Program-made: the position numbers and the translations under genes | Origin: Atopobiaceae bacterium | Lineage (GTDB): Bacteria; Actinomycetota; Coriobacteriia; Coriobacteriales; Atopobiaceae | Length of the DNA: 64,000 bases | Assembly: GCA_022483015.1 (NCBI GenBank) | Contig: JAKVOB010000001.1 | Span: 1,884,902-1,948,901, forward strand | Direction of reading: 5' to 3' | The notes under the pieces: generated by a model | What the model was told of the DNA's origin: nothing | Database searches by the model: none | Seen by the model: only the letters and a program-made list of their open reading frames with translations | Shown here: piece after piece, positions 45,858 through 53,632 of the stretch | Numbering within the stretch: position 1 is the first letter of the stretch | Layout: each line of letters opens with the position of its first letter

Positions 45858-46589
45858 TCAGTCAAGATCCCTAGCCTGCGCCGCCGTACAACCAAGCACC
45901 GTCGGGGTGGAACGGTAGCCCACGCCCATGCGGTCGATGCCCATGTCGATGAGCTCGAAGAAGTGCTCCTGGGTTCGGATGGCACCCGAGCCCTTGACGC
46001 GGATCTTGCCCGCGCCAGCCTCAATCATGGCCGCGACGACCTCGTTGGTGGCACCATGCTGCTCCCCGCCGGTGAAGAAGCCCGTGGAGCTCTTGACGAA
46101 GTCTGCGCCGGCCTCAACGGCACAGCGGGTCCCGGCCTTGACCTGTTCGATGGTGAGCGAGTCGGTCTCGATGATCACCTTCACGTTCGAGCCGTACGCA
46201 TGACAGACGTCGACGACCGCCTTTATGTCAGAGGTCACGAAGCCATAGTCGCCGGAGCGCAGACGGCCGTAGTTGGAGACGATGTCCAAATCCTCGATCT
46301 TGTAGTTCTTGCAGTACTCCTCGGCCTGAAGCACCTTGGAGGCCGTGGTGGACAGGCCGAACGGGAAGTCGCAGACCACACAGATGCCCGTCTTGGTGCC
46401 CTCGACCATGGGAGCCACGATGTCGAGCGAGGCAGGATTGATGCAGATGGTCTTGCACCCGAAGTCGATGCCCTCCTGGGCGTACTTCCTGATCTGGTCG
46501 ACGGTGAACTCGGGCTTCAGCACCGACTGGTCGACGTAGCTCGCGAGCTCGCGCTCGCTCATCTGCACTGCCTTCTTGGATGGCTTCAT
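45858..46589 (-). CDS. deoC: Deoxyribose-phosphate aldolase
   Basis: 243 residues, a class I aldolase that splits 2-deoxyribose-5-phosphate into acetaldehyde and glyceraldehyde-3-phosphate in deoxynucleoside catabolism. Seen: DQSVLKPEFT at the N-terminus, KTICINPAS, VCDFPFGLSTT, the VKVIIETDSL strand, and the Schiff-base Lys in ADFVKSSTGFFTGG, with KGSGAIRT near the end. GAGAAAGGA precedes the start at 46589. It is alone, without deoA or deoB beside it, and divergent from a GntR regulator that may control it. Confidence 0.95.
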   Translation of the reverse strand: MKPSKKAVQMSERELASYVDQSVLKPEFTVDQIRKYAQEGIDFGCKTICINPASLDIVAPMVEGTKTGICVVCDFPFGLSTTASKVLQAEEYCKNYKIEDLDIVSNYGRLRSGDYGFVTSDIKAVVDVCHAYGSNVKVIIETDSLTIEQVKAGTRCAVEAGADFVKSSTGFFTGGEQHGATNEVVAAMIEAGAGKIRVKGSGAIRTQEHFFELIDMGIDRMGVGYRSTPTVLGCTAAQARDLD

Positions 46590-46810
46590 GCCGCGTCCTT
46601 TCTCCTGGCCCCTTCCGGGGCATTGCCGATGACCTTGGTACCGGGTGATTCAGCCCTTTAGTATCGTTCCTTAGATACCTTGGCCATCTGCAGGATATCA
46701 GGCGCGGAGGAAGAGCCACTCCGGTCGAGAGAGAATCTCTGTTTGTATGGTACATAGGATATCTAGCAAGGTAGAATAGTCGTGACACCAGCAACCACGG
46801 AGAGGAATTC
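46590..46810. promoter_or_regulatory. Divergent promoter region, deoC and gntR-type gene
   Basis: AT-richer than its surroundings. It contains TTAGATACC at 46671-46679 and a related inverted GGATATCTAG at 46757-46766, possible half-sites for the GntR protein, and a small AGAGA-N3-TCTCT dyad near 46729-46741. No promoter hexamers stand out clearly. Confidence 0.35.
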
Positions 46811-47593
46811 ATGGACGCACTATCGGCGATCACCGCAGACCCACTCGACCATGCCTCGGCCACACCGCTCTACCTGCAGCTCGAACAACGCATCCTCCAG
46901 GTCATCGCCACGGGCGGCCTCGACGAGACCACACCGCTGCCCACCGACCAGGAACTATGCCAGAACCTCGGCCTCTCTCGCACAACCGTGAGAAGGTGCT
47001 ACCAGGACCTGGTGGACACCGGCAGCGTCGTGAGACGTAGGCACGAGGGGACCTTCGTCTGCCCTACCTCCACGCGACAGAACCTCGGGATGCTGCTCAA
47101 CTTCTCGGCTGAGATGGCTCGCGAGGGCAAGGAGGCCACATCGGAGGTCCTGGGGCTCCGCAGGCGCGCCTCGGATAGGGGGATCTCGAAGCGGCTCCAG
47201 GTCCCGGATGGCACCGAGGTCTGGGAGATTCGTCGCCTGAGGCTCGGCGACGGCGTCCCCATGCGCGTGGAGACCGCCTTCGTACCATGCTCCCTCTGCC
47301 CGACCTTGTCCGAGAGGGACCTCACGCACTCGCTCTATGCACGCATCTCGGAGGAGTCCGGTGCCTTGCCGGCGCGCGCCGAGGAGGCCTACGAGGCCAT
47401 CTGCCTCGACGCCAGAGAGGCCAAGGCCCTGGGGGCCACCACGGGCTCGCCCGCCTTCCAGGTCCTCAGGACCTCCTATGACACGCTGCTCCGTCCCTTC
47501 GAGACCTCCGTGCTCATCGAACCGGCCGACAGGAATCACCTACTCGTGAGCCTTGATGCAGATGGTCTCACATTGAGGAAATACTACGGCTGA
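46811..47593 (+). CDS. GntR/HutC-family regulator with UTRA domain
   Basis: 260 residues. The GntR HTH (TPLYLQLEQRILQVIATGGL through LGLSRTTVRRCYQDLVDTGS) covers about residues 18-75, followed by a UTRA effector domain (EVWEIRRLRLGDGVPMRVET ... SPAFQVLRTSYD). UTRA regulators usually sense phosphorylated sugars or related metabolites. Start at 46811 with GAGAGGA. It is divergent from deoC; control of deoC by a deoxyribose compound is a reasonable inference. Confidence 0.9.
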   Translation: MDALSAITADPLDHASATPLYLQLEQRILQVIATGGLDETTPLPTDQELCQNLGLSRTTVRRCYQDLVDTGSVVRRRHEGTFVCPTSTRQNLGMLLNFSAEMAREGKEATSEVLGLRRRASDRGISKRLQVPDGTEVWEIRRLRLGDGVPMRVETAFVPCSLCPTLSERDLTHSLYARISEESGALPARAEEAYEAICLDAREAKALGATTGSPAFQVLRTSYDTLLRPFETSVLIEPADRNHLLVSLDADGLTLRKYYG

Positions 47594-47650
47594 AGTCGCA
47601 GCCCTTGGCCTCGGGCATCCCGCGGCCCATATGCCGGGAACCAGCTGCGA

Positions 47651-48412
47651 TTACCCTGCCGCAGATATGACCTCGGCAAAGGCCTCCCCAGCCCAGGCAT
47701 CCTCCGGCGGGAGCCTCTCCGTGATCAGATAGGTGAACTCCTCGCAGGGCGCCACCAGATACGACCCCCTCCGGGAAAACTTTGACGAATCAGCGAGGAG
47801 CACGCGACGGCTGGCGTGCGCCATGGCCTCACGGGTCACCGCCAGCATCTCCGGCGAGGTCATCGTGGGACCGCGACGCCCGTCGAACCCGTCGCAGCCC
47901 GCGAAGACGATATCCGCGCAGACCTCCCGCGCCAGCTCGAGCGCACGTCCGCCAGTCGCGGCCCCCGCGCGGCCCACCACCTCACCGCCCGCGAGCACGA
48001 CTGCGCAGTCCCCCTGCGTGGCAGCGAGCCCCGCGACACGGATGCTGTTCGTGGCTACGGTGATGTCCCGTCGCAAGGGGAGTAGGCGTGCCAAGGCGAG
48101 CACCGTGCTGCCACAGTCCATCCAGACGACGTCGCCGTCACCTACAAGTTTGATGGCCTCGCGCGCGATGGCAAGCTTCTCGTGGGCATGGGAGGCCGTC
48201 TTCACCCCCACCTCCACCTCGGCTCCGAAGAGCACCTTCGCTCCCCCATGCGTCCGCATCACAAGACCAAGCGCCTCGAGATGTGCCAGGTCCTGGCGCA
48301 CCGTCTGGGGCGTCACTCCGAAGGAACCGGCAAGGGTCGCCACGTCGACCGTGCCATCCTGGAGCACGCGCTGATAGATGCAGTCCCTCCGCGCGTCAGC
48401 CGTCCGAGACAT
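47651..48412 (-). CDS. DeoR-family sugar-phosphate-responsive repressor
   Basis: 253 residues. An N-terminal DeoR HTH (VDVATLAGSFGVTPQTVRQD) is followed by the DeoR C-terminal sensor, a phosphosugar-isomerase-like fold with MDCGSTVLALARLL, TNSIRVAG, LAGGEVVGRAGAATGG and ADSSKFSRRGSY. The ATG at 48412 is preferred because the GAGGGG directly abutting the ATG at 48421 is too close to serve it. It is divergent from the hexulose-phosphate operon and sits at the edge of an array of five TTTCGTT heptamers. It probably represses that operon and itself. Confidence 0.9.
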   Translation of the reverse strand: MSRTADARRDCIYQRVLQDGTVDVATLAGSFGVTPQTVRQDLAHLEALGLVMRTHGGAKVLFGAEVEVGVKTASHAHEKLAIAREAIKLVGDGDVVWMDCGSTVLALARLLPLRRDITVATNSIRVAGLAATQGDCAVVLAGGEVVGRAGAATGGRALELAREVCADIVFAGCDGFDGRRGPTMTSPEMLAVTREAMAHASRRVLLADSSKFSRRGSYLVAPCEEFTYLITERLPPEDAWAGEAFAEVISAAG

Positions 48413-48433
48413 CGTCTCCATCCCCTCTCGACA

Positions 48434-48528
48434 AACGAAAAACGTGACGTTTCGTTTCTCAAAGTTTATACAAGAACGAAAGTTAATCTCACACGATTTC
48501 GTTCTACCGAACGATTATTCTTTTCGTT
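48434..48528. promoter_or_regulatory. Array of five AACGAAA/TTTCGTT heptamers (DeoR operator array)
   Basis: Copies: AACGAAA at 48434-48440 and 48475-48481; TTTCGTT at 48450-48456, 48497-48503 and 48522-48528. The first two form a perfect inverted pair, as do the next two, with the last extra. All lie in the 175-bp divergent spacer between the DeoR gene and the sugar-phosphate operon. Heptamers of this kind are typical DeoR-family sites. Confidence 0.75.
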
Positions 48529-48587
48529 TCTTCTGCGCGGTCGTAGATTGGAGCCAGCAAAGGACCTCCGTCAGAAAGGATCACACC

Positions 48588-49541
48588 ATGGAGACCATCT
48601 ACAAGATCAGCCCCTACTACGAGCCGCGGATGTGGGGAGGCGGCACGCGTCTGCGCGACGAGTTCGGCTATGTGACCGACGTGGCCCCCCTGGGCGAGGT
48701 CTACAACGTCGTTGCCCTCCCGGGACATGCCGACTGCGGCGTGCCGGAGCTGGGATGCACCCTCTCGGAGCTCTACTCGGCTCGCCCGGAACTCTTCGAC
48801 TGCGAGACGCAGGAGCTCCCCGTCCGCGTGAACATCCTCGACCCTATCGCCGACCTCTCGATCCAGATTCATCCTGGTGACGATTTCGCCAAGGGATACA
48901 ACGGTGGCCGCGGCAAGCCAGAGGCCTGGGTCATCCTCGACGCGCCCAAGGGCTCCCGTATCGAGTTCGGGCATCATGCAACGACCTTGGACCAGTTCAA
49001 GGACTGGACCGAGGCCCACCAGTGGGACGAGCTCCTTCGCTACCTCCCCGCCAAGAAGGATGCCTTCATCGACATCCCCACGGGGACCCTCCATGCCATC
49101 GGTGACGGCGTGCTCACCTACAACATCTCCCGCAACGCCGACTGCACGTTGCGCCTCTATGACTACGACCGCATCGAGCCTGCTACGGGTACCACTCGAG
49201 AGATCCAGCCCGAGGAGGTCTACGAGAACGTCAACATGCCCGACAAGCTCATCGACTTCGAGACCTATCCGGCGCGCGAGGAGCTGGGCGTGGACGTGAC
49301 GCGCTACACCGACCAACCCGGCCTCTACACGCTCATGCGCCTGCAGGTGAGCAAGGCTGGCCGCTTCCTCCACGACCGGTTCGCGTTCTACACGTGCGTC
49401 AACGGCTCCGGCACCGTGAACGGCGTCCCCGTGACGAAGGGCGAGACGATCCTCGTGCCGGCTGGTACGGGCTGGCTTGACCTCAAGGGCACGATGGACC
49501 TCTTCCTCGCCTCCTATCGCAACGACAACGTGGCGCGCTAG
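48588..49541 (+). CDS. Class I mannose-6-phosphate isomerase-like protein
   Basis: 317 residues, cupin-type phosphomannose isomerase of the short bacterial class. SPYYEPRMWGGGTRLRDEFG at the N-terminus, the metal-ligand IQIHPGDDFAK (Gln/His), the GKPEAWVIL segment (Glu), and the later IPTGTLHAIGDGVLTYNISR (His) are all present, with a C-terminal cupin. It normally interconverts mannose-6-P and fructose-6-P. It is first in an operon with hexulose-phosphate synthase and isomerase, so it may feed fructose-6-P into that pathway, or act on a related aldose phosphate. GAAAGGA precedes ATG 48588. A broken paralogue closes the operon. Confidence 0.88.
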   Translation: METIYKISPYYEPRMWGGGTRLRDEFGYVTDVAPLGEVYNVVALPGHADCGVPELGCTLSELYSARPELFDCETQELPVRVNILDPIADLSIQIHPGDDFAKGYNGGRGKPEAWVILDAPKGSRIEFGHHATTLDQFKDWTEAHQWDELLRYLPAKKDAFIDIPTGTLHAIGDGVLTYNISRNADCTLRLYDYDRIEPATGTTREIQPEEVYENVNMPDKLIDFETYPAREELGVDVTRYTDQPGLYTLMRLQVSKAGRFLHDRFAFYTCVNGSGTVNGVPVTKGETILVPAGTGWLDLKGTMDLFLASYRNDNVAR

Positions 49542-49564
49542 CGCCCAAGAAGAAGGGACCGATC

Positions 49565-50191
49565 ATGAAGCTCCAGATGGCAGTAGACAACGCAGACCTG
49601 AACCTCGCCCTTGAGTACGCACGGTGCACCCATGATGTCCTCGACATCTTCGAATGCGGTACGCCGCTGCTCATGCGGGAGGGCGTGCACGTGGTCCGTG
49701 CGATCAAGGAGGCCTATCCCGACCTCACCGTCCTTGCCGACTCCAAGATCATGGACGGAGGTGCCGTCGAGACGACTGACATCTGTGAGGCCGGTGCCGA
49801 CATCGTGACCGTGCTCGCCCTTGCTGATGACGCAACCGTGCAGGAGGTCATCGACACCTGTCACCAGTATGGAAGCCTTGCCATGGCCGACCTCATCTGC
49901 GTGACCGACATCCCCGCGCGCGCCCGTGAGCTCGTCACCATGGGCATCGACCTCATCGCCGTGCACACCGGGGTGGACCAGCAGGCGCAGGGTCGCACGC
50001 CCCTCGGCGACCTCAAGGAGCTCGTGGGCGCGGTCGATCCTGCCATGGCTGCCGTGGCAGGTGGCATCAACGCCACGACCGTCGCTGACTATGTCGCACT
50101 GAATCCCGGGGTCGTCATAGCGGGCGGCGCACTCTATGGTGCCCCTGACCTTCGAAGGGCTGTCATCCAGATGAAGGGGGCGCTGGTCTAG
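49565..50191 (+). CDS. hxlA: 3-hexulose-6-phosphate synthase
   Basis: 208 residues, an OMP-decarboxylase-fold (beta/alpha)8 enzyme. MKLQMAVDNADLNLALEYA at the start, FECGTPLLMREG, VLADSKIMDGGAVE with the Asp/Lys/Asp active set, and AVHTGVDQQAQGRTP with VAGGINATTV are the HPS pattern; the MDGG after Lys distinguishes it from most 3-keto-gulonate-6-P decarboxylases, though that activity is not excluded. HPS joins ribulose-5-P and formaldehyde to hexulose-6-P, reversibly. Start behind GAAGGGA. It abuts the isomerase gene with no intergenic base, as in ribulose-monophosphate gene pairs. Confidence 0.9.
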   Translation: MKLQMAVDNADLNLALEYARCTHDVLDIFECGTPLLMREGVHVVRAIKEAYPDLTVLADSKIMDGGAVETTDICEAGADIVTVLALADDATVQEVIDTCHQYGSLAMADLICVTDIPARARELVTMGIDLIAVHTGVDQQAQGRTPLGDLKELVGAVDPAMAAVAGGINATTVADYVALNPGVVIAGGALYGAPDLRRAVIQMKGALV

Positions 50192-50755
50192 ATGCAGATC
50201 AAGCAGATTGCGGCCGATGCGGCCGCAGAGCTCACCGACTGCCTGAGCCGTCTTGATGAGGCCGAGCTCGAGGCCCTGGAGGCCAAGGTTAAGTCTGCTC
50301 ATAGGGTATTCGTGGCCGGTACAGGTCGGTCGCTCCTCATGATTCGTGGGTTTGCCATGCGCCTCATGCACGCAGGACTCGACGTGTCTGTGGTGGGCGA
50401 GACGACCACGCCCGCCATCGAGCCGGATGACCTTCTCGTCATAGCCTCGGGCAGCGGGTCTACCTCGACCCTTGTGGCGATTGCCCGCAGGTGCAAGGAT
50501 GCGGGGGCACCGCTTGCCCTCATCACCACCAGGCCTGACTCCCCGATTGGCAACCTGGCTGACGGCATCGTCACGATTCCCGCCGTCTCGGGCAAGGTCG
50601 AAGGCGCCGCATCGATCTCGGTCCAACCTGGTTCCAACACCTTTGAGCAGGCTGTGCTTCTCGTCGGCGATGCCGTGGCAGCAGACATCATCGCGGCAGG
50701 TGGCCTGGCAGAAGGTAACGAGGAGCTCATGCGACGGCATGCCAACCTGGAGTAG
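50192..50755 (+). CDS. hxlB: 6-phospho-3-hexuloisomerase
   Basis: 187 residues, a single SIS domain. VFVAGTGRSLLMIRGFAMRL followed by MHAGLDVSVVGETTTPAI, then LLVIASGSGSTSTLV, are the PHI hallmarks. It interconverts 3-hexulose-6-P and fructose-6-P. It begins directly after the synthase stop and ends 72 bp before the broken second isomerase-like gene. Together with the synthase it can make ribulose-5-P from fructose-6-P, releasing formaldehyde, or fix formaldehyde; which way runs here is unknown. Confidence 0.92.
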   Translation: MQIKQIAADAAAELTDCLSRLDEAELEALEAKVKSAHRVFVAGTGRSLLMIRGFAMRLMHAGLDVSVVGETTTPAIEPDDLLVIASGSGSTSTLVAIARRCKDAGAPLALITTRPDSPIGNLADGIVTIPAVSGKVEGAASISVQPGSNTFEQAVLLVGDAVAADIIAAGGLAEGNEELMRRHANLE

Positions 50756-50827
50756 GGGCGCATGAGAAACAAGAGGCATCGCTTGGTACGAGGGCCTTCG
50801 TCCAACTCTCGCAAAAGGAGAAGAACG

Positions 50828-51767
50828 ATGAATCAGGTCTATCACATTCGTCCTGTGTTCACCGAGGCTATCTGGGGCGGCCAGCAGCTCATCGAGAAGT
50901 ACGGTTACAAGACGGACCTCAACAACATCGGCGAGAGCTACAGCGTCATCGCCATGAAGGACCATCTGGACTGCGAAGTCGCCGAGACGGGCGAGAAGCT
51001 TTCTGACTTCTAGGACGAGCACGACGACCTGTTCCAGAGCGGCACTCCCATCATGCCCGTGAGGGCGGCTATGGAGCTGCACGAATGCTCGCATGTCCGT
51101 GCAGCTCCATCCCAGCGACAAGTATGCCCTGGCTCACGACGGTCGTCTCGGAAAGCCGGATGGCGTCTATATCGTAGAAGGCAAGGGCACGGTCGAGTTC
51201 GGGCACTATGCCAAGACGCGCGCCGAGTTCAAGGACATGGCCGAGGAAGGCGCATGGAACAGCCTGCTCAGATACATCAACGTGAAGGCTGGCGACTTTC
51301 TGAACATGCCGTTCAACACCCTGCATGCGCTGGGAGCAGGCATCATCTACCTCGAGTTCTCCCAGAACGCAGACCTGACCTACCGGCTCTATGACTACAA
51401 CCGCACGCACCTGGATCCCAAGACCGGCAAGCCTCGCGAGATGCATCGCGAGAAGGTCATCGAGTGTGTGAACATCCCTGACGCAAAGACCAAGGTCGAG
51501 AGCCTCAAGACCGTCACGAATGACGGCTGCACGATCACCTCTCTCCACAACGAACCTGGTGTCTATACCTGCGGGAAGATCGAGGTCGCCGATAAGGGCG
51601 AGTATGAGCGTGACCAGTTCTACTTCCTGACCTGTATCGACGGGGCTGGCACGGTCAATGGAATCTCAATCAAGGGTGGCGAGACGTTGCTCGTGCCATG
51701 CGGTTTTGGCAAGGTCTCGCTCGAGGGCGACTTCGACCTCACGTATCTCACCTACCTGAGACCATAA
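50828..51767 (+). pseudogene. Disrupted second mannose-6-phosphate isomerase-like gene
   Basis: The start is intact (AAAAGGAG, ATG 50828; MNQVYHIRPVFTEAIWGGQQ) and the frame reads well to EKLSDF, where TAG at 51011-51013 stops it. The same frame continues as DEHDDLFQSGTPIMPVR, still family-like, so TAG replaces a sense codon. Near 51071-51097 the homology is replaced by an unrelated stretch and the frame shifts by one, after which SVQLHPSDKYALAHDGRLGK continues to a normal end at 51767. One nonsense change plus one frame change make it non-functional. It is closely related in layout to the first operon gene but too diverged to be a recent copy. Confidence 0.85.
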
Positions 51768-51853
51768 GAGAACGAGCGGCGATTAGTCCCACCGCATCAA
51801 AGGGTCGACGGACGGGCTGCTCTTGAGCGGCATCGGCCACAGACTTTCCGCCT

Positions 51854-51897
51854 GGGCACCCTGACTCGGACCTTCCCCCGTCCGTGCCAGGGTGCCC
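51854..51897. terminator. Hairpin terminator after the hexulose-phosphate operon
   Basis: Outer ten-base stem GGGCACCCTG / CAGGGTGCCC with an inner CGGAC / GTCCG stem in its 24-base loop. It lies between the operon end and the convergent TetR gene. Confidence 0.6.
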
Positions 51898-51939
51898 TCG
51901 TCATGTCTCGTTCCCCGCCAACAGGTCATGTGCGGCACA

Positions 51940-52506
51940 TCACCCCGCCGTCCCCCGCCAGGCACCCGGCACGCACGCGGCAAGGGCATCTGCCACGGCC
52001 GACTTGTCGTCCACGCAGCCCCGCTCGACCCAGCGGCGGAGCACCATCGTGAACCCGGCCTGGAAGAATACCAGGTAGTAGGTCATGAGCCCCTCGTCGG
52101 TGACGCCCGCTGCCTCGCAGCGCGGCCTCACCACCTGGTCCATGATCTGGTCGAGGCCCTGCCTGAGCGGGAAGTCATGACGTAGTGGCAGCGTCACCCG
52201 ATAGAAGTAGGCGTGGTCGGCCACGTGCTCCAGGAAGGGCACGAACGACTCCGCCGAGAGCGCCTCCACGCCCGTGGCCGGATAGCGCCCGAGAAGCTCG
52301 CCGTGCAGATAGTCCTCCATCTTTCCCAGCATGTCGGGGATGTCCTGGAAGTGTGCATAGAAGGTCGAACGGTTGACCTCCGCCGCCTCGCAGACGGCCC
52401 GGACCGTGAGACGCCTGGTCGGCGCATCACGCATGAGTGCGAGCGCACGTCCCTCGATGCGGGTCTCGGTCTGCCGATAGCGCGCGTTGTTCTTCCTGTT
52501 GGCCAT
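51940..52506 (-). CDS. TetR-family regulator
   Basis: 188 residues. An HTH of the TetR type, LTVRAVCEAAEVNRSTFYAH, sits around residues 33-53, followed by a helical C-terminal domain of the TetR_C_8-like kind. GGGGGAG directly before ATG 52506 fixes the start. It is divergent from the zinc-type dehydrogenase gene with about 100 bp between, and probably controls it. Ligand unknown. Confidence 0.88.
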   Translation of the reverse strand: MANRKNNARYRQTETRIEGRALALMRDAPTRRLTVRAVCEAAEVNRSTFYAHFQDIPDMLGKMEDYLHGELLGRYPATGVEALSAESFVPFLEHVADHAYFYRVTLPLRHDFPLRQGLDQIMDQVVRPRCEAAGVTDEGLMTYYLVFFQAGFTMVLRRWVERGCVDDKSAVADALAACVPGAWRGTAG

Positions 52507-52606
52507 CGCTCCCCCATTAACACGACACTTATCGTTATATTGCTGATCGTAGCGCTTCGCCGCCTCGCCCAGACTTGAGTCATACAAGCCGGCGAGAGGA
52601 GAGCGC

Positions 52607-53632
52607 ATGCGCGGAGCGATCTATCGAGGCAAGGAATCCGTCGAGGTACGGGACCTGTTGGACCCCGTCTGTGACGACCAGGGCGTCGTGGTGGCCAACG
52701 TGCTCGCAAGCGTCTGCGGGACCGACGCCGCCGTCTTCGCGCAGGGCCCCGGCACGGGCCACAAGGTCGACGTGGATGGCGAGTTCGGGCACGAGGTCGT
52801 CTCGCGCGTCATCGAGGTCGGGAACGACGTCCGCGACCTTGCCGTAGGCGACCGGGTCTATCCCTATCCCCTCCTCGCCAAGGACGACCCACGTCGCGCT
52901 GGCACGATGGGTGCCTTCTCGCAGGAGATGCTCGTCCCGCGCGCGCTTCTCGGCCGCTCCCTCTATAAGGTGCCGGACTCGATCGACGACCGCACCGCCT
53001 GCCTCATCGAACCGTTCACGGTAGGTTGCCGAGCAGCGCGGAGGGGGCGGCCCATGCCGGGCGAGAAGGCCGTCGTGTACGGCGCCGGCACCATCGGCAT
53101 CGCCGTCGCCATCGCGCTCGTACACTTCGGCGTGGATGACGTGCTCGTGTGCGACCGCTCCGACCTTCGTCTCTCGAAGACCGCTGACCTCGGGTTTTCC
53201 GTCTGCGACGTCGACAGGGAGGACCCGTACGCGGCCGCCTCGGAGATCTTCGGCACGGCGCCCGGACTCGCGGGCGCATCCGCGGACGTCGACCTCGTCA
53301 TCGACGCGGCCGGGAGCCCGACCGTCCTCGACGCCTTCATGGGCCAGGCCAAGATCGGGTCGCGCTTCGTCAGCGTGGCCGTGAGCAAGGGGCTGCGCCA
53401 GGTGGACCTGCTCGGCCTCACCTACGCGCAGAAGAGCATCATCGGATCGGGTGGCTACATGCCCGAGGACGTGGCCGACGTCATGGCCATCATGACAAGC
53501 GGCCAGTGGGACATCGCCTCGATCATCACGCACGAGTATCCCCTCGAGAGGATCGACGAGGCCCTGCGCCTCGCAGGCGATCCCTCGCGGGCCCTCAACG
53601 TGACCATCACGCTTGGGGACGTGCCCCGATGA
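52607..53632 (+). CDS. Medium-chain (zinc-type) alcohol dehydrogenase family protein
   Basis: 341 residues. Catalytic-zinc ligands are in ASVCGTDAAVF (Cys) and GEFGHEVV (His-Glu); the Rossmann motif is VVYGAGTIGIAVAIALVHFG near residue 145. The structural-zinc four-Cys loop is absent, replaced by YPYPLLAKDDPRRAG, so it belongs to a one-zinc branch (sorbitol/threonine-dehydrogenase-like). It should oxidise a polyol or secondary alcohol with NAD(P)+. GAGGAGAG precedes ATG 52607. It overlaps a membrane-protein gene by four bases. Confidence 0.9.
   Translation: MRGAIYRGKESVEVRDLLDPVCDDQGVVVANVLASVCGTDAAVFAQGPGTGHKVDVDGEFGHEVVSRVIEVGNDVRDLAVGDRVYPYPLLAKDDPRRAGTMGAFSQEMLVPRALLGRSLYKVPDSIDDRTACLIEPFTVGCRAARRGRPMPGEKAVVYGAGTIGIAVAIALVHFGVDDVLVCDRSDLRLSKTADLGFSVCDVDREDPYAAASEIFGTAPGLAGASADVDLVIDAAGSPTVLDAFMGQAKIGSRFVSVAVSKGLRQVDLLGLTYAQKSIIGSGGYMPEDVADVMAIMTSGQWDIASIITHEYPLERIDEALRLAGDPSRALNVTITLGDVPR

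Follow-up and report, generated by a model that had tools for sequence, protein, structure and literature searches.

The 64,000-nucleotide stretch of DNA from an Atopobiaceae bacterium, an anaerobe of gut type, analyzed here (the window; positions 1,884,902 to 1,948,901 of contig JAKVOB010000001.1, assembly GCA_022483015.1) carries an operon-like row of genes for a predicted phosphomannose isomerase (PMI)-type cupin protein (ManA1), 3-hexulose-6-phosphate synthase (HPS, HxlA) and 6-phospho-3-hexuloisomerase (PHI, HxlB), divergent from a DeoR-family regulator. At a probability of about one half, we read it as a DeoR-controlled, sugar-phosphate-induced operon whose three enzymes lead from an aldohexose 6-phosphate to ribulose 5-phosphate (Ru5P) and formaldehyde, running mainly from sugar to pentose as the ribulose monophosphate (RuMP) pathway in reverse. 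The ManA-type cupin isomerase would interconvert an aldose 6-phosphate and a 2-ketose 6-phosphate (fructose 6-phosphate, F6P, or a close relative), PHI would shift the carbonyl to C3 to give 3-hexulose 6-phosphate, HPS would split this into Ru5P and formaldehyde, and the DeoR protein would induce the operon on sensing a sugar phosphate; we infer the direction of net flux, the inducer and the substrate. The predicted identities and the linkage come from sequence, and the order of the steps from known chemistry. The enzymes themselves are already known; what is new is a variant, the module with its exchangeable isomerase. A preliminary description of the window had not recognized the linkage as described, and a limited search of the open-access literature, with subscription papers outside its scope, likewise found no paper on the ManA1-HPS-PHI linkage.

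Identity of the three enzymes

HPS (49565–50191, plus strand, 208 amino acids) scores 216.9 with the equivalog model TIGR03128 (curated cut-off 200), and PHI (50192–50755, plus strand, 187 amino acids) scores 207.8 with TIGR03127 (curated cut-off 160), which bears out the identities given in the preliminary description. The nearest solved chain to HPS is 3f4w, annotated as a putative HPS and far above the chains of 3-keto-L-gulonate-6-phosphate decarboxylase (KGPDC), and PHI matches the structures of Bacillus subtilis YckF and of MJ1247. At the equivalents of KGPDC positions 112, 139, 169 and 192, which we take to be those that separate HPS from KGPDC function, the window protein has D109, V137, A165 and G188, all four of the HPS type, and its DxKxxD and HxGxDxQ motifs are unbroken. 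By model score, signature residues and tree placement it is predicted to be a true HPS, catalyzing the reaction of Ru5P and formaldehyde to or from 3-hexulose 6-phosphate. Decarboxylation of 3-keto-gulonate 6-phosphate, named at the outset as an outcome that would undo the reading, is unlikely by the active-site residues, and a KGPDC assignment was rejected on these signatures together with the pairing with PHI. In a separate group of HUMPS/OMPDC-family proteins in Coriobacteriia (L008–L024), the KIMDxG motif is replaced by KIFHSG, KIVNSG or KVFHGG; by signature these proteins are neither HPS nor KGPDC.

ManA1 (48588–49541, plus strand, 317 amino acids) clearly matches B. subtilis ManA (1qwr) in sequence, and its predicted structure (predicted local distance difference test, pLDDT, 88.8) has a template modeling (TM) score of 0.89–0.90 to the same protein. 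It shares with this class I mannose-6-phosphate isomerase (M6PI) the fold, the metal ligands and the catalytic Gln, Lys and Glu; the metal-binding and catalytic residues reported for the Bacillus enzyme (PMC4718643) are retained as Q93, H95, K110, E112 and H169. It differs in scoring only 70.6 with TIGR00218 (manA), under the cut-off of 116.2, and in having an Asn, N179, aligned to the conserved Glu E264 of Salmonella typhimurium PMI, a residue among the sites mutated in a crystal series of the Salmonella enzyme. The change runs through the subfamily: the motif is LETQQSSD or similar in canonical ManA and NISRNAD in every ManA1-type homologue that covers it. A canonical ManA is encoded elsewhere in the same genome. 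ManA1 is best regarded as a predicted cupin isomerase of the class I PMI type that belongs to a subfamily of its own, with one active-site change, and the annotation of this subfamily as mannose-6-phosphate isomerase may be wrong.

Recurrence of the linkage and the exchangeable isomerase

A scan for ManA1 across 84,980 species genomes gave ten loci, two of which stop at a contig edge. At four of the eight with enough downstream DNA, HPS and PHI follow directly after ManA1: in metagenome-assembled genomes (MAGs) of a Lachnospiraceae (L030), an Erysipelotrichaceae (L033) and a Eubacterium (L035), and in Olsenella KGMB02461 (L037). Three of these have a DeoR gene directly upstream, and the remaining four loci (L031, L032, L034 and L036) have ManA1 without HPS. 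Both genes are rare in Coriobacteriia, with full-signature HPS in 6 and ManA1-type genes in 2 of the 296 genomes sampled, so adjacency at half of the ManA1 loci argues for a linkage beyond chance. The linkage of a ManA-type isomerase, HPS, PHI and DeoR is thus real and conserved, and the possibility raised beforehand that it was unique to this strain is answered by the three Bacillota MAGs and the Olsenella in which ManA1, HPS and PHI recur together. In the latter (L037, 10001–11023), ManA1 residues 1–176 run in frame into an HPS that begins near its residue 40, which may reflect a deletion that took the end of ManA1 and the start of HPS, or else an assembly error. A second Faecalicoccus ManA1 (L099) lies after a DeoR gene and has a 26-residue HPS remnant downstream, the only such remnant found downstream of the solitary ManA1 genes. 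Since intact, fused and remnant loci occur in unrelated genomes, the arrangement spans phyla and has decayed more than once.

The gene that occupies the isomerase position varies. The HPS proteins of the window, G002 and G181 group together at 100/100; the neighbor is ManA1 in two of the three and a cupin glucose-6-phosphate isomerase (cupin PGI, PF06560) in the third, G181, where it, not ManA1, precedes HPS. G178, G181, G203 and G217 are all Coriobacteriia; the neighboring genes in G203 and G217 were named by reading their translations. G178 likewise has a cupin PGI (PF06560) before HPS, plus a phosphotransferase system (PTS), and in G217 a mannose-type PTS, HPS, PHI, DhaK and DhaL lie in a row (L049, G217:C1, 6573–12367). 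A Salmonella plasmid and Escherichia coli KE47 carry SgrR, a ptsG-like EIIBC, cupin PGI, hxlB and hxlA, a block present in 132 of the 5,426 complete E. coli genomes. Like the window, this block sets a cupin-superfamily sugar-phosphate isomerase beside PHI and HPS, and its HPS is 49%–50% identical to that of the window; it differs in its PF06560 isomerase, in its PTS and SgrR-family regulator, and in placing hxlB ahead of hxlA. The block is annotated, and we found no published function for it in the open-access literature. Sugar-type regulators or PTS genes adjoin the module in G178, G217, KGMB02461, E. coli and Salmonella. The HPS tree unites G181, G203, E. coli/Salmonella and the ManA1-linked sequences in one clade (95/90) and places the HxlR-type plasmid hxlAB sequences in a separate one (99/98). 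The window locus appears to be one version of a wider module, spread by horizontal transfer, whose isomerase slot holds a ManA1-type protein or a cupin glucose-6-phosphate isomerase, often beside a PTS.

Two other arrangements were seen in Coriobacteriia. The DhaK and DhaL genes beside HPS and PHI in G217 could indicate a link to formaldehyde or to trioses, and in G203 HPS and PHI interrupt a leucine biosynthesis cluster, with a leuC-like gene on one side and a leuD-like gene on the other (L048, G203:C13, 8304–11833). The genes c3405–c3410 of uropathogenic E. coli (PMC2831201) were considered as a published E. coli hxl locus and rejected: the CFT073 stretch beside amiC/argA, equated with c3405–c3410 by its gene content, has no hxl genes, and the PTS cluster there is another one, accompanied by MalY and KpsF/GutQ genes.

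Gene order, control region and pentose pathway background

The preliminary description had the genes in the order ManA1, HPS, PHI and a broken second ManA-type gene (ManA2), with a divergent DeoR gene, and every one of them is in its place. They are separated by 23, 0 and 72 bp, and this tight spacing is operon-like. The description of HPS and PHI as flanked by two ManA genes stands as far as there are two ManA-type genes, but ManA2 (50828–51767, plus strand) is a pseudogene, leaving one working isomerase. Codon 62 is an in-frame TAG, and the frame then shifts ahead of the conserved metal-binding SVQLHP motif; the match of the fragment to TIGR00218 is under the cut-off, and its G+C content at third codon positions is 0.51, against 0.73–0.88 in the neighboring genes.

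The regulator (47651..48421, minus strand) is above the cut-offs of PF00455 and PF08220 and belongs to the DeoR family, not to the HxlR type. Its nearest NCBIfam models are SrlR, AgaR and GlpR, each matched under its own cut-off. The intergenic control region (48422–48587, unstranded), within which the starting point first given for the locus (48434) falls, has five ACGAA/TTCGT sites, arranged as inverted pairs, at 48435–48527, against a mean of 0.27 per equal-length stretch of the window, and inverted repeats I2, I3 and I4, of the ACGAAA/TTTCGT type, cluster there. They are likely to be DeoR operators. A single operator common to all versions of the module was considered and rejected, as the window has ACGAAA-type repeats and L030, L033 and L035 have ATCGCAAGT repeats. 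A sigma-70 promoter scan of 47500–52700 gave no match. Adjoining the DeoR gene is a minus-strand deoC (deoxyribose-phosphate aldolase, TIGR00126 above cut-off), with a GntR/UTRA regulator divergent from it (window 45858–47593).

We used protein family searches to examine the pathways of the genome. Glucose-6-phosphate dehydrogenase (zwf, PF00479) and 6-phosphogluconate dehydrogenase (gnd, PF00393), for which the preliminary description had suggested looking, are both absent, and RpiA (PF06026) has no match. This gap is not supported as the reason for the module. Among ten genomes tested, comprising this one and nine relatives, zwf is found in none and gnd is missing in eight, HPS-negative genomes included, and transketolase and transaldolase-family genes are found in all ten. 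Lack of the oxidative pentose pathway was accordingly rejected as a sufficient explanation, and because zwf is missing from HPS-negative relatives too, the family in general does not obtain its pentoses through the module. Canonical PGI and canonical ManA are both encoded elsewhere in the genome, so ManA1 would be redundant unless its substrate or control differs; together with the gene content of the relatives, this means that the operon is explained neither as pentose rescue nor as the only F6P isomerase. The reverse RuMP pathway of archaea, in which HPS and PHI form Ru5P where the oxidative pentose phosphate pathway is missing, resembles the module in its two reactions, its proposed direction and the absence of zwf and gnd, but it differs from the situation here, where transketolase and transaldolase-family genes are present.

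Direction of the pathway and competing readings

A sugar-driven role is favored because of the sugar-type regulators, the PTS neighbors and the split between HPS clades. It is supported further by the two different kinds of hexose-6-phosphate isomerase that fill one slot within a 100/100 clade and by the retention of metal and catalytic residues in ManA1, and the recurrence of the module in unrelated gut bacteria suggests the same. Several points weigh on the other side. The HPS equilibrium favors condensation, so cleavage would require removal of formaldehyde, and no formaldehyde sink was identified here. No PTS adjoins the window operon, the genome already encodes canonical PGI and ManA, the sugar-linked clade does not include the HPS proteins of G178 and G217, and PHI gives a weaker and less clear tree than HPS. 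The Glu-to-Asn change in the active site of ManA1 could, moreover, imply another reaction.

The reading that survives best beside it, although we think it unlikely, is detoxification or assimilation of formaldehyde, in which HPS and PHI form F6P by fixing formaldehyde on Ru5P, and the isomerase does no more than feed this product into mannose or glucose phosphate pools. Fixation is the direction generally held to be favored by thermodynamics, and the known bacterial form is an HPS-PHI pair beside the gene of a small winged-helix regulator, of the HxlR type or another, as on Staphylococcus, Leuconostoc and Priestia plasmids. The HxlR-hxlAB detoxification operon of Bacillus and other Bacilli shares with the window adjacent HPS and PHI genes in the same order, but it has no isomerase; here the regulator is of the DeoR type and HPS lies in a different clade from the HxlR-linked proteins. 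Detoxification also needs no dedicated isomerase when a canonical PGI and ManA are present.

The sugar-driven reading can be sharpened into a widespread, as yet undescribed catabolic route of gut bacteria in which a ManA1-type protein or cupin PGI, with PHI and HPS, would convert one particular hexose phosphate to Ru5P and formaldehyde, the ManA1 subfamily having a new substrate specificity of which the Glu-to-Asn change is the mark; we put this forward tentatively, as improbable in so definite a form. More doubtful still is the catabolism of a non-standard hexose phosphate, with ManA1 presumed to act on a sugar phosphate other than mannose 6-phosphate, for instance one of the allose or altrose type, and PHI and HPS completing the path to Ru5P and formaldehyde. 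It would account for an enzyme otherwise redundant beside canonical PGI and ManA, for a residue change found across the whole subfamily and for a score under the manA equivalog cut-off, and it fits the PTS-linked versions of the module in other genomes. However, ManA1 is solitary in some Erysipelotrichaceae, and the window operon has no adjoining transporter.

It is very improbable that HPS fills the place of the KGPDC (UlaD) missing from ascorbate breakdown: the ula-like operon of the genome (UlaC, A, B, G, F and E; ~262–271 kb) lacks UlaD, the sole other HPS match in the genome is ribulose-phosphate 3-epimerase, and promiscuous activity is common to HPS and KGPDC, but HPS-type residues stand at four of the four discriminating positions, the gene is paired with PHI and distant from ula, and the same UlaD-less operon with the same additional 349-amino-acid gene is present in G110, where HPS has no match at 1e-20 (a divergent UlaD that scores above this limit is possible). 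Such ascorbate-type operons (G000:C1, L101, L102; also L105/G110 and L107/G178) include a transaldolase and a split transketolase, and the conserved 349-amino-acid gene between UlaB and UlaG is a possible stand-in for the missing decarboxylase step.

HPS and PHI of non-methylotrophs are usually read as enzymes of formaldehyde detoxification. In Coriobacteriia, Bacillota, E. coli and Salmonella they are repeatedly paired with two kinds of hexose-6-phosphate isomerase, with sugar regulators and with PTS genes, which points instead to a function driven by sugar. If the reverse direction is true, these gut bacteria would form formaldehyde from sugar.

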